Made by a program: the position numbers and the translations under genes. The notes under the pieces are model-generated. The model was not told where the DNA came from. It was given only the letters and a program-made list of their open reading frames with translations, and did no database searches. Positions 6,721 through 19,457 of a stretch of DNA of 20,404 bases are shown here, piece by piece (positions within the stretch are counted from its first letter, which is position 1; every line of letters begins with the position of its first letter). Origin of the DNA: a virus; IMG/VR virus record IMGVR_UViG_3300020000_000065, positions 1-20,404 of that record. One strand, 5' to 3'.

Positions 6721-6951
6721 GTGGCGCACGTCCCGACGTGCGACCCGAATGTAGTTATCGAGTCGCAAACGCCGACGAGTGTTATCTACCTCGTACCCGT
6801 GACGGGCGAGAGGTGGAGGATTGATGGCGTGTGCAGTCAATGCGGCGAGTGCTGGCAAGGGCTCACAACACCGAAGCCGACACTCGATTGCCCGGTGCGC
6901 CCGACGATCTCGAAGTTCCCTAGCTGCACGCTTAGCGGAGAGTACCTCTAG
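6721..6951 (+). CDS. Small six-cysteine protein of the tail module
   Basis: This 76-residue protein has no recognised family. It begins with GTG 6 nt after the upstream stop and has no clear Shine-Dalgarno, so it may depend on translational coupling. It contains six cysteines at about residues 7, 38, 41, 44, 57 and 69. Three form CxxCxxC (CSQCGECW). The spacing suggests metal binding, either zinc or an iron-sulfur cluster. Lambda tail-tip protein gpL carries an iron-sulfur cluster, so a tail-tip metal protein has precedent, but nothing here proves the comparison. Its TAG stop shares one base with the GTG start of the giant tail-tip gene, so the two are probably translated together. Confidence 0.6.
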   Translation: MAHVPTCDPNVVIESQTPTSVIYLVPVTGERWRIDGVCSQCGECWQGLTTPKPTLDCPVRPTISKFPSCTLSGEYL

Positions 6952-9900
6952 TGCCTTCGAATCTATACTTCACTGCCGTTGTACCGACAGTCGGACCGAC
7001 AGCCGGGACGAAGGCTACGTACCTGCCTCTCGCTTCGCCTGCCATTAACAATGTTTGGCCTGGGTCAGAGGTCAATTCGTCATTCACCGAAGTACCTCCG
7101 GACGATACGAATCAGCAGTCGCGGCAATGCCCGATGCTGAACGACACTGCGAATAGGCAGACGTACTATCTCGGGCGTTTCTGCACATTGCCTCTTGATG
7201 CGCAGACCATTCCGGCGCAAAGCTGGGACTATCGAAATGTTGTGTGCGGCGAGTGGAATACGCAGTGCAATACATATCACTGGCCTGTTATCTATGTATG
7301 GCGTCCCTCGACTAATTCGGTCGTTGGATACTGTCTCAACGCGTCCGCTCAAATGGGTGTTGAGTGGGCTGTCACACCGGCAGGTGTTTCGGGGCAGTTA
7401 TTTGCCGGTGCGGCGGTAACGTGCCAAGCAGGCGACATACTTGTCTGTGAGTTCTGGGCTTCTGGCATTTTAGGTATGACCGGCAGTCAACAGCTTCAAT
7501 GGCTGTGGACCCAGGCATCTAACACCTATATTGCTTCACCGTACAAGCTAGTTTATTACTCGGGTCCGGTAGGACCGAATACACCGAGCACCGCTGACAC
7601 GCTCGTGTTCTCGCCGATGACGGCGTTCGCAGCGACATCGACAGTCACGCGCAACTACACGAGCAACGCAGTGCCGCTGACACTCTCGCCGATGTCGGCG
7701 ACTGCGGCAACGTCAGGCGTGGTGAAGGTATACAACAGCGTCGCAGACCCGATGACGTATGCGCCGATGGTGCCGTTCGATGCGACGGCAACAGTGACGC
7801 GCAACTACACAAGCAGTGCGGACCCGGCAACGTATGCAACGACGCCAGTAGACGGCGAAGAGTTCTTTAGCGGCATCACGAATTTCTTTCCTTGTGCCGA
7901 TCAGGCTCTAGTCTTTCCATCAGGCGGGCTGAAGGCAGGGTCACTGCCGAAGGTCGGGAACAACAACGTCGCATCTGGCAGTGCGGTCGAAGGATCGTTG
8001 CCGTTGTTCTGGGGCGGCGGCGCGAACATCGCGAACCGCACGACAGCGACGGTGTCGAACACCGTTGTGCAATCGCACTTCTTCGGGCGCTTTTCTTCGC
8101 GTCCATTGGCCGCGCAAACGATACCGGCGCAGAATTGGAACTATGCAGTAGTTGTCGGTGAGGGCAATCTCAATGCGAATGCGTTTCTATGGCCGGTCAT
8201 GTATGTGTACCGGCCTTCGAACAGCACTGTTGTCGGTTATGTCTTCAATGCGGCGGCTGATGCGGGCACTGAGTTGCCAGCTACAGCGGCGACGGCGACG
8301 CGGACATTCGCGGGTGCACGGGTAGCAGGCATTCAAGATGGCGACATACTTGTCGTCGAAGCGTGGACAGTTACGTCGCCGACAATCGCCGGTATCTACA
8401 CGCAGACATTCAGGATCACCGACAACACATCGAAGATCGCTTCGCAGTATAAGGTGCTCTTCGCACCTAACTCGGTCCTGTTCTTTAGTAGCGCGACACC
8501 GACTTCATCGCCGACAGCGGGAACGAAGGCAACCTATCTTCCGAAGACACCGACAGCTACGCAGCACACCGCATGGGGCACTGCTGAAGGTGCGTTGCCA
8601 GAGACGATTGTTCATAATCCCGTGTGGCGCGGTGTTGTGTCGAAGGCGAACACTACTGCGCAATCGCTGTTCCTGGGTCGGTACTCGACGCCACCACTGG
8701 CAGCGCAAACCATACCGGCGCAGTTGTGGAGTTGGGAAGTATCTGCGGGACAGAATAACGCCAATGCGCATACATTCAATTGGCCGGTTCTGTATATCTG
8801 GCGTCCGTCAACGAGTCAGGTTGTTTCGTACATTCTCGATGCGTCGGCGAACTACGGCATTGAGTGGCGGCTCTTAGGCGACCCGCGTCTAGATCAACAA
8901 TTCTCGGGTGCGTCTGCTGATGTTCAAGCGGGTGACTTACTGGTCTGCGAGCTTTGGGCTGTCAATGTTCAAACAGCGGCGACAGCCTACAGCGAAGATT
9001 TCTGGATCAATGCGCAAAATTCTGATTTAGTCTCGCCCTACAAGTTGCGCTACTACACAGGCGCGGCAGCGATAACATCGACAGCCGATCCGACTGCTTA
9101 TAGTTGCGTCGCGCCCGATGCAATCAGCACAGTGACGGTGTATGCACCGCCATTGATGGAGACGCTCACAGAGAACTTCGAAGCACCACTCGACACGGGC
9201 AAGTGGACGACAAGTAACTTCGATGGCACGGTGACGTTCACAGGTGGCGTCGGTGTCTTCGATGTTTCGACTGGCATTGCTGGCGCGCAGGCCGAAATCT
9301 TTTCTGCTGGGCCGTTCTACGATCTTAGACAGAGCAAGGTCTTCTTCAAGCTCGTTAAACCATTCAAGCAAGTCGGTGATCCTAGCACCGCCGATTTCTC
9401 GCTGGGCATTATGTCGCCCGGCAATAACACGCTAGCGTTCGCGCAAAACACTGCCGGGTATCTGCGAATCATTAAATTCACGGGCGGTGCATGGGGCCAT
9501 GTTGCAGATATAACCTTCTCCTATTTCGCAGAAGAAGACACCTATAGATGGTTGCAGATTCGCGAGCAAGCCGGGACAACATACTTCGAGTCTGCGCCGA
9601 GTAGCGCTTCTAATCCGCCGACTGCCGGTCAATGGGTTGTTCGTCACTCTGCGCTGACGAACACGCTGCCGGTTAACTTTGCATCGTGTCAGCCTGTCTT
9701 CTGGATATACACGAACGCAGGCGGCACGAAGTTGCAGGCCGCGCAGATTGACGGGTTCAACACCGCTGCTTCTGCCGGTGCTGCCGCAGCAATCACGTCG
9801 GTTGCAGACCCGATGACGTATGCGCCGATGGTGCCGGTTGCGGCAACGTCGAGCGTGCAAGACTACAGCAACGCGAACACGAACGTCTATGCGCCGATGT

Positions 9901-12900
9901 CGCCCGTTGCGGCAACGTCGAGCGTGCAAGCTGTCAGCAACGCAGTGCCGCTCACGTTCGCGCCGATGTCGCCGACAGCGGCAACGTCTTCGATCACGCG
10001 GGTCTACACGAGCAACGCAGTCGCAGCGTCCTACGCTCTCGCGCCGGTTGCCGCCACATCGTCAGTTGCCGTCTTCAGCAACGCAGTCGCAACGACGTAC
10101 ACACTCGCGCCGGTTGCCGCGACGAGCATCTATGTGCCGACTGCCGGGAACGTGGGGCCTGCGGCCTATGCGCTCGCGGCTGCGGCTGCGGTGTCGAGCG
10201 TGCAGGGCAACAGTGCTGCGTTGCCTTTCGTCTTCAGTTTCGCGGCGACGGCGACGGGCACCGGGCGCGGCTGGGCGAGCGTCGGAAATGCGGGCCTGTA
10301 CGCTCTCGGGGCCGCTCCGGGCTCCGGTAGCATTGGCAGGGTCGGGATCGCGTCGCCTGGATCGTTCTCGCAAGCCGGTTTCCCAGGTTGGGACACCGGG
10401 GCTTACTACAGCAGCGCTGATCCGATCGGATACAGCACAACAGGCATAGCGGCGACGGTTTCGCTCGGTCGGGTTTATTCATCGGTCGCTTCGTCGACGG
10501 GCTTTGCACAGTCGCCGAATGCAACAGGCGACACCGCTGCGCTCTTCTCGGTTGCGTCACCGCTTGCATTCACGCCGCTTGCCGCAACAGCGGCAACATC
10601 GGGCTTCGCTGTTTATTCGGTTGCGCTGCAAGCGAACTACACGCACACCGCACCGAATGCGACGGCATCGGTAGGACGCACCTACACATCGACTGCGACG
10701 GCAACGAACTTCTTCACAGCGCCTTCTGATGCAGGCGATGTGTCCGCACGGTTTTCTTCTGCGTCACCTACTGCGTACAGTCAGACAGCGATAGCGGCAA
10801 CGTCCGGCGTTGTCCGCATCGTGTTCTCGACGGCGTCGCCGATAACATACAGCCACACCGCACCGGACTCGTTCTCTGGCATTGTCCGGATTATTCCGAG
10901 CAATGCGGTGCCTGCGGTTTACTTTAACTTTCCGCAGGATGCACAAGTCAGTCTTGCGCGCACGTCGATTGCGTTGCCGTTCACGTATGCACCGCTCACG
11001 GGCACTGCGACGACAAGCGGCTTCGCTCGATCTTCGCTTGCGATAGAGGTAGCGTACAACCTTGTCTCGCCGGTCACGTCGGATGTTCTCGGTCGGACAT
11101 ACACGAGTGTTGCGTCACCGGCTGCGTATGTCTTGAGCCCAGGTTATCCGGGTGATGCCGTAGCAGACAACTCGACTGCGACGAGCACTGCATACAGTTC
11201 GACTGTGTTTGCGGCGACTGCTTTCCCGAGTAAGAACTCGATTGCGCTGCAAGCGAACTATGCGCACGATCCGCCTAACACGCAATCAGGGCGCATCACG
11301 TTTTCGACTGCGTCGCCTGTGGCGTTTACCGTTGCATCACCGGCAACGAATTCGTATGTTCCTGGCAAGGTGGCATCGGTTGCGCTGCCGCCTACATTCC
11401 TGACGACTGCGACAGCGTCTAATCATCGGCGAGACTACGCAACGAAAGCACTTGCGGCGCTCTATCTGCAAGCACCGTATGTCAACAGTGATCGTGCATC
11501 GAATGAGGTCAAGCCGCCGATAATCTTCCCGCTGCCGTCGCCGATGTCGGCGGTAACAGATGAACAGTTCGCAGCATGGTTGAACGACGATCATGCGATT
11601 CGTGTTGTGCTGATCGAGACGAAGTGTGTTGACCCTGTCACGAACATGACCGAGTCTGTCTTCTTCGCGTCGCGTGGCTTCGTGACGAAAATCGAAGACG
11701 GTCCGAATGCTGCCTTCTATGCGCCGTTGATGCGCGGCGGGCTTGAGTTCGCGCAGACCATCGACCTCGACTTGCAAGGCAATCAATCGTATGGCGACAT
11801 CGAGCTAGACAACACCGAAGGTGATCTCGATTGGATGTTTGACCGCGTGTGGCTCTATAAAGAGTTCAAGGCATACGTCGGTGATGCGACATGGCCGCGC
11901 CGTGATTTCAGGCAGATATTCGACGGCACGATTGAAGACATTGACAGCAGCATGCGCGACACCGTGAACGTGCGGCTGCGCGACAAGCTGTATCGTCTCG
12001 ATATGCCGATCACTGATTCGAAAGTCGGCGGCATTGGACCTAACGCAGACCAACTCGTGCCGATCACGTTCGGCGAATGTCACAACATCACGCCGTTGAT
12101 CTATAGCGCCAAGGATTTGATCTATGTCTATCATGCGCGTCTAGCAGAGGGACAGTTAGAGGTTCGCGACAACGGTGTTCCTGTGGCGTCTACATTCCTT
12201 CAAGGCGCACCGCAATCGTTTCAATTACAGAAACAGCCTTATGGCAGGGTCACATGCAGCGTGCAAGGCGATAAAACTCCTACCGCTGCGGGCTTCACTG
12301 GTGGCTACGTCAACACAGTGGCGTCTCTGGTGCGTCGGTTGCTAATTGAATGGGGCACCATTGCTGCGAATCGTTTTACAGCAGCCGACATTGATGTTCG
12401 CAACTTCACTGTGTTCGACGCAAAGAATAAAGCGCCGGTTGGTCTACACGCAACAGAGCGAATGACAGTGCTTGAGGCGTGTCAGCAACTTGCCGCGTCT
12501 GTGGGTGCACGCCTGACGATGACAGCGCTCGGTAAAGTACAACTCGTGAAGCTGAAGTTGCCGCCGGACGACGATTCAACGCCAGTGAACTTGCAGTACA
12601 ACGGCGATTTTTCTGCGCTGCTTGATGGCTGGACCTATAACGGCGGTAGCGGCGGCGTTGCCCCTGATGCGACAGTAGGCATCAATCTTTCTGATGTCTG
12701 GACTCCGCCAAACACAAACACGTTCTATGCGCATCAACAAGGCATCGTAAATAATCCAGAAGGCTATTTCGAATACATTGGCAAAGCTATTCCAGTTGAA
12801 CCCGGCAAGCAATATGTCGTTAGTGCGTACACTGGTGCCCATCGCTGTCGCGTCGCTATTTACTTCAGTGAGTACAACGAAGCTGGCACACTTCTCGGCG

Positions 12901-13568
12901 GCGTGCCTGTCCTGCCGACAACGGCATTCAACAACGCAGAAGCGTTAGGCGGGCAAGGGTTGTCAGGCTATAAGCAGATATACAACTCACAGGTAACAGC
13001 GTCGACTACTAGATGGATTCGTGTTGTGATGCGCAAGTACGATACCATCTCAGGCAACACTGACTCGTGGATATTCGCTAACACGGTATCGTTCACCGGC
13101 ACAGAGTCGAATGTTCTTCCGACAATTGTTGTCACCGAGTCGGACATGGTGTCGGGCTCGCTGCACATCGCGGATCGTTTGCCATTGGTGCCGGGTGCTC
13201 GCCTGGGCTATTGCAAGAATTGGACAATACAAGAAGACACAGCGCAAGGTGTGCCAGAAGATCACAAGGAGATGTATAGACGCGAGTGGTTGACCGTATC
13301 AATTGCCGAAGCAGTTGAGCAAGAGAATTGTTTATTGTTGGATAGCTACAGCGCGAACAATGAGTGCACTCGGCGTGTTGCGTTGCGTTCGTCACAGCGT
13401 CACGTGTATGAGTTCGTAGGCTTTGCGAACTTGATGTTCACGCCAGTGGGCGCAGCGATGAAGGTGATTCACCGTCGCTTTAATTTGTCCGCAGGCAAGA
13501 CAGGACAAGTCGTGTCGGTAGCTGTAAACTGGCTAACGTCCCAGGTCACAATCAGGGTGCTAATCTGA
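6951..13568 (+). CDS. Giant repeat-rich tail-tip / hub protein
   Basis: This 2205-residue protein starts at GTG with GGAG about 10 nt upstream, overlapping the previous stop by one base. Domains in order: a ~200-residue module (about 5-205); four short repeats (about 213-302); second and third copies of the module (about 303-509 and 510-704); a single short repeat; a ConA/LamG-like beta-sandwich (about 734-940); roughly 25 copies of a ~23-residue repeat (about 948-1519); then a region without repeats (about 1521-2205). The last region looks like a tail hub or minor tail protein, judging by its position after the tape measure and before small tail-tip genes. It contains an inserted carbohydrate-binding-like sandwich (about 1882-2050). 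The repeat array is probably an extended shaft and the flanking modules receptor binders; that is inference. No catalytic motif was recognised. Confidence 0.8.
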   Translation: MPSNLYFTAVVPTVGPTAGTKATYLPLASPAINNVWPGSEVNSSFTEVPPDDTNQQSRQCPMLNDTANRQTYYLGRFCTLPLDAQTIPAQSWDYRNVVCGEWNTQCNTYHWPVIYVWRPSTNSVVGYCLNASAQMGVEWAVTPAGVSGQLFAGAAVTCQAGDILVCEFWASGILGMTGSQQLQWLWTQASNTYIASPYKLVYYSGPVGPNTPSTADTLVFSPMTAFAATSTVTRNYTSNAVPLTLSPMSATAATSGVVKVYNSVADPMTYAPMVPFDATATVTRNYTSSADPATYATTPVDGEEFFSGITNFFPCADQALVFPSGGLKAGSLPKVGNNNVASGSAVEGSLPLFWGGGANIANRTTATVSNTVVQSHFFGRFSSRPLAAQTIPAQNWNYAVVVGEGNLNANAFLWPVMYVYRPSNSTVVGYVFNAAADAGTELPATAATATRTFAGARVAGIQDGDILVVEAWTVTSPTIAGIYTQTFRITDNTSKIASQYKVLFAPNSVLFFSSATPTSSPTAGTKATYLPKTPTATQHTAWGTAEGALPETIVHNPVWRGVVSKANTTAQSLFLGRYSTPPLAAQTIPAQLWSWEVSAGQNNANAHTFNWPVLYIWRPSTSQVVSYILDASANYGIEWRLLGDPRLDQQFSGASADVQAGDLLVCELWAVNVQTAATAYSEDFWINAQNSDLVSPYKLRYYTGAAAITSTADPTAYSCVAPDAISTVTVYAPPLMETLTENFEAPLDTGKWTTSNFDGTVTFTGGVGVFDVSTGIAGAQAEIFSAGPFYDLRQSKVFFKLVKPFKQVGDPSTADFSLGIMSPGNNTLAFAQNTAGYLRIIKFTGGAWGHVADITFSYFAEEDTYRWLQIREQAGTTYFESAPSSASNPPTAGQWVVRHSALTNTLPVNFASCQPVFWIYTNAGGTKLQAAQIDGFNTAASAGAAAAITSVADPMTYAPMVPVAATSSVQDYSNANTNVYAPMSPVAATSSVQAVSNAVPLTFAPMSPTAATSSITRVYTSNAVAASYALAPVAATSSVAVFSNAVATTYTLAPVAATSIYVPTAGNVGPAAYALAAAAAVSSVQGNSAALPFVFSFAATATGTGRGWASVGNAGLYALGAAPGSGSIGRVGIASPGSFSQAGFPGWDTGAYYSSADPIGYSTTGIAATVSLGRVYSSVASSTGFAQSPNATGDTAALFSVASPLAFTPLAATAATSGFAVYSVALQANYTHTAPNATASVGRTYTSTATATNFFTAPSDAGDVSARFSSASPTAYSQTAIAATSGVVRIVFSTASPITYSHTAPDSFSGIVRIIPSNAVPAVYFNFPQDAQVSLARTSIALPFTYAPLTGTATTSGFARSSLAIEVAYNLVSPVTSDVLGRTYTSVASPAAYVLSPGYPGDAVADNSTATSTAYSSTVFAATAFPSKNSIALQANYAHDPPNTQSGRITFSTASPVAFTVASPATNSYVPGKVASVALPPTFLTTATASNHRRDYATKALAALYLQAPYVNSDRASNEVKPPIIFPLPSPMSAVTDEQFAAWLNDDHAIRVVLIETKCVDPVTNMTESVFFASRGFVTKIEDGPNAAFYAPLMRGGLEFAQTIDLDLQGNQSYGDIELDNTEGDLDWMFDRVWLYKEFKAYVGDATWPRRDFRQIFDGTIEDIDSSMRDTVNVRLRDKLYRLDMPITDSKVGGIGPNADQLVPITFGECHNITPLIYSAKDLIYVYHARLAEGQLEVRDNGVPVASTFLQGAPQSFQLQKQPYGRVTCSVQGDKTPTAAGFTGGYVNTVASLVRRLLIEWGTIAANRFTAADIDVRNFTVFDAKNKAPVGLHATERMTVLEACQQLAASVGARLTMTALGKVQLVKLKLPPDDDSTPVNLQYNGDFSALLDGWTYNGGSGGVAPDATVGINLSDVWTPPNTNTFYAHQQGIVNNPEGYFEYIGKAIPVEPGKQYVVSAYTGAHRCRVAIYFSEYNEAGTLLGGVPVLPTTAFNNAEALGGQGLSGYKQIYNSQVTASTTRWIRVVMRKYDTISGNTDSWIFANTVSFTGTESNVLPTIVVTESDMVSGSLHIADRLPLVPGARLGYCKNWTIQEDTAQGVPEDHKEMYRREWLTVSIAEAVEQENCLLLDSYSANNECTRRVALRSSQRHVYEFVGFANLMFTPVGAAMKVIHRRFNLSAGKTGQVVSVAVNWLTSQVTIRVLI
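6963..7565 (+). repeat. Tail-tip module, copy 1 of 3
   Basis: This is the first copy of a ~200-residue module. Shared landmarks are PTAGTKATYLP near the start, a YLGRF-type motif, AQTIPAQ followed by a W, WPV.Y.WRPS, a QAGDILVCE-type segment, and a YKL.YY ending. It lies at the N-terminus of the 2205-residue protein. Confidence 0.8.
7587..7856 (+). repeat. Four ~23-residue repeats between modules 1 and 2
   Basis: Four units of the pattern (S)xADPxxYAPMxPxAATSxVxRxY are encoded here. They match the long array at 9792-11508, including a 33-nt exact DNA match, so module-linker and shaft repeats have a common origin. Confidence 0.8.
7743..7775 (+). repeat. 33-nt exact direct repeat, left copy
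   Basis: These 33 bases, coding for ADPMTYAPMVP in context, recur exactly at 9804-9836, 2061 bp downstream. They sit within 23-residue repeats of the inter-module linker and of the long array respectively. Confidence 0.9.
7857..8477 (+). repeat. Tail-tip module, copy 2 of 3
   Basis: This is the second copy of the ~200-residue module. It keeps FFGRF, PLAAQTIPAQ, WPVMYVYRPS, a QDGDILVVE segment and an SQYKVLF ending. The PTAGTKATYLP motif is much altered in this copy, so it has diverged more at the N-terminus than copies 1 and 3. Confidence 0.8.
8478..9062 (+). repeat. Tail-tip module, copy 3 of 3
   Basis: This is the third copy of the module, directly abutting copy 2. It has PTAGTKATYLPKTP, FLGRYSTPPLAAQTIPAQ, WPVLYIWRPSTSQVV, QAGDLLVCELW and a YKLRYYTG ending. 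The PTAGTKATYL motif recurs from copy 1 almost unchanged. Confidence 0.8.
9792..11508 (+). repeat. Array of about 25 degenerate ~23-residue (69-nt) repeats
   Basis: Each unit follows roughly SxAxPxxYxxxPxAATSxxxRxY, that is, SNAVPLTFAPMSPTAATS and similar. I count about 25 units in about 1.7 kb, close to 69 nt each. The first few units are the most alike: bases 9837-9861 recur exactly 69 nt later at 9906-9930. Later units drift in sequence and slightly in length. Alternating small and aromatic residues suggest beta strands stacked into a shaft. The units match no repeat family I can name. Confidence 0.82.
9804..9836 (+). repeat. 33-nt exact direct repeat, right copy
   Basis: This is the right-hand copy of the 33-nt repeat at 7743-7775. 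Recombination between the copies would delete about 2 kb in frame, removing modules 2 and 3 and the ConA-like domain. Confidence 0.9.
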
Positions 13569-15345: not shown

Positions 15346-17376
15346 ATGGGCATACGATTCTATGGAGGTTTGCCGATCAGAGTGCCGCCCGCTACGGTGT
15401 TGCCGAGTGCGTTGCCGGTCAACACCGTGCCAGCGGGACAGACTACCTACATCGACACGACGAAGCGCTTTCGAGTAGCGGACAGCAATCCTGTCAAGGT
15501 TGCCGATAACGATTCACCACTCGTCACAGCGACGCTTACTTGTTCTAGCGGCATACTCGAAGTTATACCGAATGTGGGCGTGATCGTTTCCAACAACATC
15601 AGCACTCGCGTTGTTGTCATGGGCTCAACTACGAACGTAAATCGCGCATTCGACGGTTTACGTTGGACACCGACACCGGCATTCAGTGGCACTGCAACGA
15701 TCACTCTGCGCACGAGCGACGGTGACAACATTGATACCGACACTTTCAACGTCGTTGTGTCAGGTACAGCACCGCCTTATGTGCCGCCTGGGCCAACGAA
15801 CTCTGTGCCGTCAGGGACGAAGATGGTGCCGTATGGCTACACGCTCAACTTCTCAGGCGACGGCATCACTGTGTATGACCCTGATGTGGCGACGCTGACA
15901 ACGACGCTCACGATGGTCGGTGGCATTGTTCACGTGACGCCAAGCGGCGCAGCCGTGACCGGCAACGATACAGGGCTCGTCACTCTCGTGGGCACACAGA
16001 CGCAGATTAGTGCAGCACTCGGCACGTTGATCTTCACGCACAACGGCGGCTTCTGGGGCTACGCTAAGATAACAGTGTCGACAAACGATGGTCCGAAGAC
16101 AAGTGCGAACGACATCAACATTGTTGTCGGTGTGCCTGCACTGCCGCCTGTGCAACTCGTGCCGCCACAACCGTTCTCGGTATCTGGCTTTACTGCGGGC
16201 TCGAACATCAAGTTCACGAGTGGTCCCGGTCCTGACAATTCGATGAAGATCACCGCTGCCTATAAGATGTCGCTTCGCACAACGATCTCGTGCGGTCACG
16301 GCATCATTAAATATGACGCCAATGCCACGGGCTACACGAATCTCGCCGATGGTTGTCCGACGAAGGTGCTCTATGGTTATTGGAACGGTGCCGCTGCGAC
16401 AACGATGCGACAGATAAACAATTATTGGAATGTCATTGGTATGGCGCGTGCACGCAATGCCGGTTCCGGCCTGGGCGGCGGTGCTGTGTCCTGGCCCTAT
16501 GCAACGGGCAATGCGGGCGTGCCGCTACCGCACGATGTTCAATTCATTCGAGCCTGCGGCAAGCCTGTCTTGCTCGTTGTCGGCGGGCCTGGGTATGGCT
16601 TCAACTACACGACGCGAGCGCAGTCGGATGCCTTGCTTGGCTCGCTCATTCCGTTGATCTATGCAATGGGTGGCGTCGACGGCATCGACATTCAGTTTTA
16701 CGACGGCGACTTAACTGGCTTGAGCCTCACAACGGAAGCTGTCTATATCGCGCAGCAATTGAAGGCAGCATACGGTTCGAAGTTCATGATTGTTTATTCA
16801 TTCAGGCAAAACCCAGCGTCGCAGCAAGTGAAGGACATTGCTGTCGCTTTGCACAATGCAGACTGCTTGACGTTAGTTCAACAGATATTCATGGACAATG
16901 CAGCGAACAAAGTGGCGAATGCTGTATCAAGCAAGGTTCTTCAGTTCATAACGGACACGCAAATTCCACGTAACAAACACATGATTGGCATGTCGCATAA
17001 CTATGACTACACGAACAATCTCACCCTAGCAGAAGCCGTGAATGCATATCAACAAACGAATACGGTCAACACCGCCTTTCGTGGCGTGTCCTGTTGGTCT
17101 ATTGACCTAGATGCTGCGGTAACTGGCTCATTCAGCACAGAGTTCAAATGGACGCAGCTTGGCTATACCTTGACTGACAAAGGTACGGCACTCATAACAG
17201 GACACTCAACGAGACAAGTGACGCTCACGGGCGACTACCAACAAATTAACTCGGCGTTGGCATCGTTCTACTATTATCCGGACCTTAACTATCAAGGCCC
17301 GGACCCTGTTGTCATGACGACAACCGATGGCACGCTATCGGACACGGACTCGATCAATGTCACTGTGATGAATTAA
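15346..17376 (+). CDS. Tail fibre-like protein: cadherin-like repeats with a GH18-like, apparently inactive, barrel
   Basis: This 676-residue protein has two cadherin-like beta-sandwich repeats (about 27-142 and 147-263), each ending in a strand with SDG or NDG and DT- or D-rich turns. A third repeat seems to start near 270-325 and finish at about 603-676 (TTTDGTLSDTDSINV). Between its halves lies a GH18-like barrel (about 340-600): KVLYGYWNG opens it, VVGGPGYGF (about 411-419) matches the SxGG strand, DGIDIQFYDGD (445-455) matches the DxxDxDxE strand, and CWSIDLD (583-589) matches the final barrel strand. In the catalytic motif the third Asp is Gln450 and the acid Glu is Tyr452, so chitinase-type catalysis is unlikely and glycan binding is more probable. 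A GAGG lies just before the ATG. Position at the end of the tail genes fits a receptor-binding fibre. Confidence 0.78.
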   Translation: MGIRFYGGLPIRVPPATVLPSALPVNTVPAGQTTYIDTTKRFRVADSNPVKVADNDSPLVTATLTCSSGILEVIPNVGVIVSNNISTRVVVMGSTTNVNRAFDGLRWTPTPAFSGTATITLRTSDGDNIDTDTFNVVVSGTAPPYVPPGPTNSVPSGTKMVPYGYTLNFSGDGITVYDPDVATLTTTLTMVGGIVHVTPSGAAVTGNDTGLVTLVGTQTQISAALGTLIFTHNGGFWGYAKITVSTNDGPKTSANDINIVVGVPALPPVQLVPPQPFSVSGFTAGSNIKFTSGPGPDNSMKITAAYKMSLRTTISCGHGIIKYDANATGYTNLADGCPTKVLYGYWNGAAATTMRQINNYWNVIGMARARNAGSGLGGGAVSWPYATGNAGVPLPHDVQFIRACGKPVLLVVGGPGYGFNYTTRAQSDALLGSLIPLIYAMGGVDGIDIQFYDGDLTGLSLTTEAVYIAQQLKAAYGSKFMIVYSFRQNPASQQVKDIAVALHNADCLTLVQQIFMDNAANKVANAVSSKVLQFITDTQIPRNKHMIGMSHNYDYTNNLTLAEAVNAYQQTNTVNTAFRGVSCWSIDLDAAVTGSFSTEFKWTQLGYTLTDKGTALITGHSTRQVTLTGDYQQINSALASFYYYPDLNYQGPDPVVMTTTDGTLSDTDSINVTVMN

Positions 17377-17685
17377 ATGTGGGATGAAGTACAGCAATGG
17401 ATACTTCGCTTCGCCGGTGTTGCGGGTGCTCTCGTGTCGATGCGCTTTGTGAGTGGGTCACTCTTCGAGCGTGTGCTCATGGTGATCGGCGGCGCGTTCT
17501 TCTCGTTCTACGCAACTGAGTGGGTCGCGCAATGGCTCGCGTTGCCGCAGGGGCTCACGGGCTTTCTCCTGGGGCTGTTCGGCATGTCGGTGCTCTCTCG
17601 CGTGTGGGAGTGGGTTCAATCGACGAATGCTGTGTCGGGCTTTCTCGATGCATGGTTGAATAGAGGCAAGCCGAAGGATAAATGA
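17377..17685 (+). CDS. Small membrane protein, putative holin
   Basis: This 102-residue protein starts at the base after the fibre-gene stop. It has two or three hydrophobic segments (about 11-27, 32-54 and 58-76) and ends in a short basic tail (RGKPKDK). Size, topology and the position just before an endolysin gene fit a phage holin, the protein that permeabilises the inner membrane at a set time. Sequence alone cannot show which of the three membrane proteins in this cassette is the true holin. No dual-start motif of the lambda S type is evident; the second Met is at residue 22. Confidence 0.65.
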   Translation: MWDEVQQWILRFAGVAGALVSMRFVSGSLFERVLMVIGGAFFSFYATEWVAQWLALPQGLTGFLLGLFGMSVLSRVWEWVQSTNAVSGFLDAWLNRGKPKDK

Positions 17686-17686
17686 C

Positions 17687-17989
17687 ATGATGCTCGATGC
17701 TTCTTTCGTGTCGTCGGCGTGCTGGTTCTTCATCGGCACGACGGCTATCGTCGCGAGCTTCAACGGCATGGTGCGCAAGACCGTGCTCGAATGCATTGCA
17801 CTCGGCGGCGTCAGCCTGGGCGCGTTCTCACGATCCTACTATGTCTACATGCGGCAAGAGACGGACCCTGATGCGCTTTGGATTTCGATTGCGCTCGCGA
17901 TCTATTGCCTTGCCATGTGGTACAAACTCGTGTGGGTTATTCCACACCGGCCCGATTACAAGCCGCCACCGAAATCGCCTTACTACTGA
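17687..17989 (+). CDS. Small three-segment membrane protein of the lysis cassette
   Basis: This 100-residue protein is separated from the previous gene by 1 nt and has AAGGA about 9 nt before its ATG. Two consecutive ATGs (17687 and 17690) could both serve. Hydrophobic segments lie at about 9-25, 33-50 and 64-86, followed by a proline-rich tail (HRPDYKPPPKSPYY). It could be a second holin, an antiholin, or an accessory membrane protein. Its stop overlaps the endolysin-fusion start (TGATG), so the two are translationally coupled. The family is not recognised. Confidence 0.65.
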   Translation: MMLDASFVSSACWFFIGTTAIVASFNGMVRKTVLECIALGGVSLGAFSRSYYVYMRQETDPDALWISIALAIYCLAMWYKLVWVIPHRPDYKPPPKSPYY

Positions 17990-19251
17990 TGGCAAACATC
18001 ACGCTCACAGACTACATCGTCAAGCGCAATGTGCGGGCGTTCCTGTGGGCGATTCGATATGGCGAAGGCACGCAAGGCGAGAACGGATACCGCACGCTGT
18101 TCGGTGGTCAATTGTTCAAGGGTCCGGACGGTGTCTATGGCACGTTCGACGACTTCGCCGATCACCCGCGCATCAAGACGACGGTGACGCTGCGCAATGG
18201 CAAGGTCTACACGTCGACTGCGGCGGGCGCGTATCAATTCATCGTGCGCACATGGGACGGTGTTTGCAATCAATACGGCTTCATCAACTTCGAGCCACCG
18301 ACACAAGACCTTGCCGCTATCGCATTGATAGCTGGCCGCAAAGCACTCGAAGATGTTGTCGAAGGTCGCATCGACATCGCAGTTGCGAAGTGCAATAAAG
18401 AATGGGCTAGCCTGCCTGGGAGTCCCTACGGGCAACCCGTTGTCACGCTGGGAGAGTTCAAGCGAGAATACGAAGAGGCAGGCGGGCTGTATTTGAATGA
18501 ACAAGCGCAACCCTTGCCGATACCATTGCCACCGGAAGCAATCGCACTTGAGCCCAAATTGCCACCGGCTAACGGCAGCGAAGTCGTCGAGATTGCGAGA
18601 GGTAAAACGGCGGACATCGAGGCAAGCTACATACAGGAGAAGCAAATGCCTATACCCGCAGTTGTCGCGGCATTGTTGCCGACGCTCATTCAACTCGTGC
18701 CGCAGTTGACGAAGATTTTCGGCAGTGGCTCTGAGGTATCGAACCGCAATATCGCAGCGGCAGAAGCAGTGTTCACCGTGGCGAAGGATGCCATCGGCGC
18801 GAAGAATGAACAAGAGGTTGTCGAAGCGGTGAAGGCCGATCCTGTTCAAGCAACCATCGTCAAGAATGCTATCGAGAAGAACTACTTGAACATTCAAGAG
18901 GCGGGCGGCGGCGGCATCGAAGGCGCACGAGCGTACAGCGTCGCTGTCGCATCCATGCGCACGCCAGAGGGACAGCCGCTCTCGTTGCTCACGCAACCGG
19001 CCTTCGTGATCTCTATCGTCATGCTCGGGCTCGTTGTCATGATGGTGCTTGTCGTGCTGTTCCCGTGGGAAATATTTCGAGCGAACGGCGGACAGATTTA
19101 TACCGATGAAGTACGATTGATCGTGGTGACAGCCATCATCGGATCACTCTCGACGATAGGGGCTTTCTGGCTCGGATCGTCATTCGCAAGCCGTGGCAAT
19201 AACGCGAGTGGCTCTCGCACACGTTCAACCGATTCAGGAGCAATGCAATGA
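17989..19251 (+). CDS. GH104 endolysin fused to a holin-like membrane domain
   Basis: The start is the ATG overlapping the upstream TGA; the in-frame extension from 17878 lies inside the previous gene. Residues about 10-172 match lambda gpR, a muramidase/lytic transglycosylase that cuts the MurNAc-GlcNAc bond: GEGT with catalytic E26, ADHPR, STAAGAYQF, QDLAAIALI, and WASLPGSPYGQP. Lambda gpR is about 158 residues; here the gene continues for about 250 more. A Pro-rich linker (about 172-198) leads to a second region that starts at Met220, with an amphipathic LPTLIQLVPQLTKIFGSGSE, an acidic helical stretch, and two membrane segments (about 335-357 and 375-396) ending FWLGSSFAS, typical of stand-alone phage holin-like proteins. 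No signal peptide precedes the enzyme, so release or flipping across the membrane must rely on the membrane domain or the neighbouring holin candidates. Confidence 0.85.
   Translation: MANITLTDYIVKRNVRAFLWAIRYGEGTQGENGYRTLFGGQLFKGPDGVYGTFDDFADHPRIKTTVTLRNGKVYTSTAAGAYQFIVRTWDGVCNQYGFINFEPPTQDLAAIALIAGRKALEDVVEGRIDIAVAKCNKEWASLPGSPYGQPVVTLGEFKREYEEAGGLYLNEQAQPLPIPLPPEAIALEPKLPPANGSEVVEIARGKTADIEASYIQEKQMPIPAVVAALLPTLIQLVPQLTKIFGSGSEVSNRNIAAAEAVFTVAKDAIGAKNEQEVVEAVKADPVQATIVKNAIEKNYLNIQEAGGGGIEGARAYSVAVASMRTPEGQPLSLLTQPAFVISIVMLGLVVMMVLVVLFPWEIFRANGGQIYTDEVRLIVVTAIIGSLSTIGAFWLGSSFASRGNNASGSRTRSTDSGAMQ
18635..18648 (+). promoter_or_regulatory. Internal Shine-Dalgarno and start codon inside the endolysin fusion gene
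   Basis: AGGAGA followed by 5-6 nt and ATG lies in the coding sequence for IQEKQM, exactly at the linker-to-membrane-domain boundary. The start of the full-length gene has no comparable purine tract and relies on the TGATG overlap. Confidence 0.65.
18646..19251 (+). CDS. Possible nested holin-like protein from an internal start
   Basis: An in-frame ATG at 18646 (codon 220 of the fusion) lies 6 nt after AGGAG (18635-18639). This is a stronger ribosome site than the one before the full-length gene. The product would have 201 residues: MPIPAVVAALLPTLIQLVPQ at the start, two C-terminal membrane segments, and the FWLGSSFAS end. Free-standing phage proteins with this layout begin at just this point. 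The sequence shows the start signal. That it is used is inference. Confidence 0.55.
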   Translation: MPIPAVVAALLPTLIQLVPQLTKIFGSGSEVSNRNIAAAEAVFTVAKDAIGAKNEQEVVEAVKADPVQATIVKNAIEKNYLNIQEAGGGGIEGARAYSVAVASMRTPEGQPLSLLTQPAFVISIVMLGLVVMMVLVVLFPWEIFRANGGQIYTDEVRLIVVTAIIGSLSTIGAFWLGSSFASRGNNASGSRTRSTDSGAMQ

Positions 19252-19457
19252 AGATCGAATGTAGCGAAGGTTCAAGCGGCGTGTGGTCTTGGCGCTTCAA
19301 GAGCGACAACGGCGAAACCGTCATCGCCGAAGGCACGAAGACTTTCGAGTCGCAGGCAGAAGCGAAGAAGGCCATTGACGCATTCGCCGGATCAGTGGGC
19401 GTCAAGGCAAACGCGGTCAGCTATGTGCCGCTTGTGCCAGAGAAGGAAGAAGAGTAG
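19248..19457 (+). CDS. DUF1508 (YegP-like) small protein
   Basis: This 69-residue protein matches one copy of the DUF1508/YegP fold pattern: WSWRFKSDNGETVIAEGTKTF, then an Ala/Lys helix (SQAEAKKAIDAFAGSV), ending in an acidic tail. The domain is found in short bacterial proteins of unclear function. The ATG overlaps the fusion-gene stop (ATGA), and AGGAG lies 7 nt upstream, so it is the last gene of the late operon here. Its 3' end overlaps the convergent nuclease gene by 41 nt. A lysis role is not implied by the family. It could be a late-expressed moron or accessory gene. Confidence 0.75.
   Translation: MKIECSEGSSGVWSWRFKSDNGETVIAEGTKTFESQAEAKKAIDAFAGSVGVKANAVSYVPLVPEKEEE

Follow-up and report, generated by a model that had tools for sequence, protein, structure and literature searches.

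An endolysin gene with a predicted in-frame nested holin-like gene in an uncultivated virus

How C-terminally anchored endolysins reach the cell wall is an open question (PMC8943055), and it is raised again by a gene in a linear, 20.4-kb fragment from an uncultivated virus (an IMG/VR record; this whole stretch is called the window below), in which a muramidase and a holin-like membrane part share one reading frame. The initial annotation, which recognized this arrangement, took membrane-anchored endolysins to be anchored at the N terminus only, but C-terminal anchors have been published for Enc34 ORF39 (PMC8943055), M4Lys (PMC7143992) and LysAP (PMC8879335). At issue here are whether the fusion is genuine, what its membrane part is and whether that part is also made on its own.

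A GH104 endolysin fused to a membrane module

The fusion gene (17989..19251; this gene, its parts and its two upstream neighbours are all on the + strand) is uninterrupted from ATG 17989 to TGA 19251 and encodes a 420-aa endolysin–membrane protein. When the C-terminal 201 residues served as the query, a scan of viral contigs yielded 18 loci, with 14 distinct gene sequences including that of the window. A stop codon between the two parts, which the initial annotation had named as the sign of a sequencing error, was found in none of the 18 contigs. Because all 18 keep the fusion, with seven different distances from the main start to the internal Met (213–220 codons) that are in frame every time, the joining of endolysin and membrane module is genuine and is no sequencing or assembly error. 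The probability that two genes were joined artificially is negligible, and we rejected this reading: independent contigs and three divergent relatives carry the same fusion, and no evidence supporting an artefact was found. Two scans of genome contigs returned no prophage or host-genome copy.

The assignment of the N-terminal part to the lambda gpR-type GH104 enzymes was borne out by both sequence family and catalytic residue. Within this domain (residues 1–172; 17989..18504), residues 10–172 match the PHROG endolysin family phrog_90 (E 1.9e-39) and residues 15–167 match lambda lysozyme (1AM7, E 6.7e-20), with the catalytic Glu26 aligned to the Glu of the lambda 'SEGT' motif (Glu19). The fusion is unusual for this enzyme family, as had been supposed. 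In the isolated GH104 phages that we inspected (Sortsne, ctn9Y15, Ssp-JY37 and IPK) the endolysins are ordinary and unfused. Hydropathy of the window protein revealed no N-terminal hydrophobic segment, which sets it apart from SAR endolysins with their weakly hydrophobic, N-terminal signal-arrest-release TM, and its GH104 catalytic domain places it outside the Enc34/M4Lys type, in which a PHA02564-type catalytic domain is followed by a short C-terminal transmembrane domain (TMD).

The two parts are joined by a variable, disordered linker (residues 173–219; 18505..18645), for which dN/dS is 0.28 (calculated for residues 172–213); the two domains have values of 0.08 and 0.05. With a pS of 0.61, at which synonymous differences are near saturation, the linker evolves fast, yet purifying selection acts on its amino-acid sequence, and it is hence translated.

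Elsewhere in the window, the tail genes include those for a tail assembly chaperone and a tape measure. The nearest homologues of the tail proteins belong to phages of Azospirillum, Xylophilus, Acinetobacter and Leptolyngbya, a hint that the host is Gram-negative. A 2205-aa tail-region protein (6951-13568) has a GTG start and many degenerate repeats of the SNAVPLTFAPMSPTAATS type, and contains a tandem array with a period of 69 (9822-9988). A 676-aa structural-type protein (15346-17376), with no Pfam or PHROG match, carries GVDGIDIQFYDGD, which by eye resembles a GH18 chitinase motif without the catalytic Glu. At the other end, a 494-aa protein (32-1516), Pro/Ala/Ser-rich in its N-terminal part, matches Glyco_hydro_12 at E 7.9e-5, under the curated cutoff.

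The membrane module and its stand-alone homologues

The C-terminal 201 residues constitute a holin-like membrane module, which we describe as a nested in-frame gene (18646..19251). Hydropathy places its two strong hydrophobic segments at residues 340–358 (TM1; 19006..19062, KD 3.21) and 377–395 (TM2; 19117..19173, KD 2.08), in agreement with the segments at about 335–357 and 375–396 proposed in the initial annotation; beyond TM2 come GSSFAS and a tail rich in Arg. A third, marginal segment, H1 (residues 222–240; 18652..18708, KD 1.76), is hydrophobic or amphipathic, lies just 3′ of the internal Met and is a helix in a low-confidence model (the AF2 models have pLDDT of 49 and 51). The three segments reproduce the plan of the GTA_holin_3TM family (PF11351). 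H1 was absent from the initial annotation, as were the conserved start at 18646 and the canonical holin two genes upstream, both described below.

Searched alone, as had been proposed, the module matches phrog_1544 (E 6.4e-4); no Pfam holin family was matched, the curated PF11351 cutoff was not reached, no relative was found in the PDB, and the matches among isolated phages were weak and confined to Vibrio phages (E 0.09). Profile searches recovered three distant relatives, each representing a divergent clade by one contig. Two of them, L021 and L053, are GH104 fusions, and in the third, L022, the module follows an unrelated hydrolase (phrog_873 type, with an 'RNRNPGNI' motif as in M4Lys). The module is thus joined to two unrelated hydrolase types, with a Met and a Shine–Dalgarno (SD) sequence at the junction in both. 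In the L022 gene (5542-6549), an M4Lys/Enc34-like 'RNxNPGNI' hydrolase carries the window-type module, so that one hydrolase type occurs with two different C-terminal membrane parts.

Homologues of the module also exist as separate genes. One is a 183-aa gene of Vibrio phages that matches phrog_1544 at E 9.9e-46 and the L022 module by BLASTP at E 4e-7; another, in L066, scores 32.1 bits against GTA_holin_3TM (Pfam cutoff, 24.8), with a GH24 lysozyme encoded separately about 1.6 kb away. Comparison by hhalign of the fused-module profile with these two stand-alone homologues gave a probability of 95.6 (E 1.3e-8) with Met1 aligned on Met1, over a match that spans module residues 1–103 and leaves the TM hairpin outside. 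The link from the window module to PF11351 runs via the intermediates L022, L058 and L066. These comparisons point to distant homology with the 3TM holin family and uphold the holin-like label of the initial annotation; because the window module does not itself reach PF11351, we call it holin-like and not a member. The holin of R. capsulatus is presumably a PF11351 member. Disruption of its putative lysozyme partner reduced release, whereas for the holin itself there was no direct proof at the time of that discussion (PMC3423380). The experimental case for a holin role of the GTA_holin_3TM family is thin.

The fusion might have no special role: the module could be a holin or lysis accessory, joined to the endolysin by loss of a stop codon and simply co-expressed with it, with host proteases cutting the linker to yield a soluble endolysin and a membrane protein. 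The unstructured and fast-evolving nature of the linker would suit such processing. We regard this as very unlikely, given that all 18 contigs keep the parts in frame, as do the three divergent relatives, in which two hydrolase types occur, and that we found no relative in which a stop codon separates the parts.

An internal start signal and two predicted products

Directly 5′ of an in-frame ATG at the endolysin/module junction stands CAGGAGAAGCAA. The predicted ribosome-binding site and start (18636..18648) consist of GGAG at 18636-18639, a 6-nt spacer and the ATG at 18646-18648, which encodes Met220, invariant in 17 aligned sequences. With an SD core defined as AGGA, GGAG or GAGG located 4–10 nt upstream of an ATG, the internal start has such a core in the window, in 17/18 contigs and in 3/3 divergent relatives (GGAGAAAACAACA-ATG in L021, AAAGGAGACCACG-ATG in L053 and AAGGAAAAGAAG-ATG in L022), a conserved in-frame internal ribosome-binding site and start of the kind that defines two-polypeptide endolysins. 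The background frequency in the window is about 1% (3/363 other ATGs on the + strand and 3/293 on the other strand). The one exception is L014, in which the SD is weakened to CAGGGAAAAGCT by a Glu-to-Gly codon change that leaves a purine run, AGGGA. A free-energy ranking of SD sequences without a spacing limit was not discriminating, and the core-and-spacing test was used instead.

The residues that precede the Met vary by clade (QEKQ/QEKA, AEKTT, KEKK, KETT) while the SD persists, and its retention in L021, L053 and L022 despite changed amino acids is stronger evidence for an internal start than the synonymous sites provide. Among the latter, Q216 is CAG in 13/13 and E217 is GAG in 13/13, compared with nearly equal use in the genes overall (CAA/CAG 141/125; GAA/GAG 200/199). 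Of 412 five-codon windows ranked by synonymous conservation, the one starting at codon −7 relative to Met220 is 10th and those directly on the SD are about 22nd–24th, so that synonymous sites lend modest support. The mRNA is locally open at the internal start in L021, L022 and L053, where 0–7% of other ATGs are more open, and is not unusually open in the window clade (20% in the window).

At the main start, 17989, an SD core is absent, and in the window and 18/18 contigs the ATG overlaps the stop of the upstream gene as TGATG (17987..17991 in the window) or TAATG; this start is probably translationally coupled to the upstream gene. These features suggest that full-length expression is coupled and lower, with the short product initiated independently. 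Because the internal SD-ATG is conserved and the stand-alone homologues start exactly at the internal Met, one gene with two predicted products, an endolysin-tagged holin-like protein and a free holin-like protein, is the most likely arrangement; the membrane part, although fused, probably continues to be produced on its own as well. Overlapping the stop of the fusion gene is a further ATG, preceded by its own GGAG, which begins a small DUF1508 protein (19248-19457; E 4.6e-5).

A dual start could also serve timing. In lambda, the S gene has a dual start and the longer S107 form delays lysis by S105. By the same logic, the bare module might be a holin that requires H1 to traverse the membrane (N-out), and the attached 219-residue enzyme would keep H1 inside, so that the full-length protein, acting as an antiholin, would poison the raft and delay lysis. 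The predicted products do share the membrane module, with the marginal H1 right after the start; yet H1 may be merely amphipathic and peripheral, and we consider this antiholin role quite unlikely.

Two membrane proteins are encoded immediately upstream. The first (17377..17685) is a canonical holin candidate of 102 aa with two hydrophobic segments (phrog_2359 holin, E 2.5e-13). The second (17687..17989), a conserved membrane protein of 100 aa, belongs to no PHROG family and ends in a conserved tail (HRPDY.PP.KS..Y). Its stop provides the overlap with the fusion start, in the window as in each of the 18 contigs; it is possibly an antiholin or a second holin. The two may act as membrane openers or timers, and the canonical holin, two genes 5′ of the fusion, could provide the way to the wall. 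With this gene present, hole formation need not fall to the module. A crude lipobox scan of four loci recognized no spanin-like lipoprotein gene near the cassette.

Computation shows that the fusion and the internal start are conserved and that the module has the homologies described; translation of both products, their co-assembly, their topology and delivery of the enzyme at a hole are inferred. The full-length protein, made from the TGATG-coupled start at 17989 without an SD, would be a GH104 muramidase held by its flexible linker at the inner membrane, on the cytoplasmic face. Its anchor would be the C-terminal TM hairpin, for which positive residues past TM2 and the lack of an N-terminal signal favour an N-in, C-in topology. 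The SD-preceded ATG at 18646 would supply the bare 201-aa holin-like protein, probably in excess, and the shared module would let both co-assemble into a raft of holin-like subunits, a minority of which bear the enzyme. Once the membrane is opened by the module, the upstream holin or both, the pre-docked enzymes would gain access to the wall at the lesion, by the reach of the approximately 47-residue linker or after its cleavage. Such a mixed assembly is the simplest model that employs both products.

The module may instead carry or flip the enzyme to the far side of the membrane and hardly depend on a holin, in the manner of the C-terminally anchored M4Lys, Enc34 ORF39 and LysAP, the internal start being incidental. 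M4Lys alone lyses E. coli, requires its C-terminal TMD and is claimed to be exported independently of a holin (PMC7143992), LysAP requires its C-terminal TM (PMC8879335), and the L022 hydrolase is similar to the M4Lys/Enc34 type. The membrane parts of these three enzymes are, however, short (1–2 helices), and inspection of the M4Lys gene revealed no internal start with an SD ahead of its TMD, whereas here the internal SD-ATG is kept across four clades; we therefore judge this mode of delivery to be unlikely.

The best explanation, to which we assign a probability of roughly one half, is that an endolysin gene contains an in-frame nested 3′ gene of the 3TM-holin-like type and encodes two proteins that co-assemble. 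That the nested gene leads to a mixed raft with some subunits bearing the muramidase, so that enzyme release is physically tied to hole formation rather than to free diffusion, in an arrangement that recurs with two unrelated hydrolases, is a more tentative proposal. If it holds, one gene may supply both halves of the host-bursting machinery, with a natural way to dock a muramidase at a future membrane hole. A gene that encodes both an anchored enzyme and the bare anchor, by way of a conserved internal start, makes the question of the route to the wall directly testable by a few point mutations.

Comparison with known systems

The layout of the window gene is shared with lambda C/Nu3, in which an in-frame partner, translated from an internal start, is nested within an enzyme gene; that pair is a capsid protease and a scaffold, not a lysis system. 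GTA_holin_3TM/phrog_1544 proteins resemble the window module in their three-segment plan, through distant homology that aligns Met on Met, and differ in being encoded by stand-alone genes, whereas the window module is fused and falls below the Pfam cutoff. The C. sporogenes holin–endolysin fusion (TpeE family; PMC9527704) likewise holds both functions in one chain, but its holin is N-terminal with a single TM and no nested second product has been reported. Enc34 ORF39, M4Lys and LysAP share with the window gene an N-terminal catalytic domain and a C-terminal TM part, and raise the same question of how the enzyme reaches the wall; in Enc34 and M4Lys, the catalytic domain is not GH104 and the TM part is short.

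Heteromeric endolysins composed of a full-length and a C-terminal product are known (PMC9430671). Endolysins with internal starts are common among phages that infect Gram-positive hosts, and the single-gene, two-polypeptide endolysins Lys170, CTP1L and LysIME-EF1 come from phages of Gram-positive hosts (PMC9430671, PMC4777826, PMC7098653). Like the window gene, each is a single gene with an in-frame internal start and its own ribosome-binding site, and its C-terminal product is common to the full-length enzyme; that product is a cell-wall-binding domain attached in two cases to a catalytic domain, whereas that of the window gene would be a three-segment holin-like membrane module. In the open-access literature we found no report of an endolysin with an internal start that yields a holin-like membrane protein, nor of a C-terminal anchor combined with an internal-start endolysin; anchored and internal-start endolysins are each known, and their combination is apparently unreported. 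The survey in this literature excluded Gram-negative hosts, which were judged unlikely to have internal starts. If the proposed two-product reading is true and the host is Gram-negative, two-product endolysin genes would extend beyond Gram-positive hosts, and from wall-binding partners also to membrane partners.
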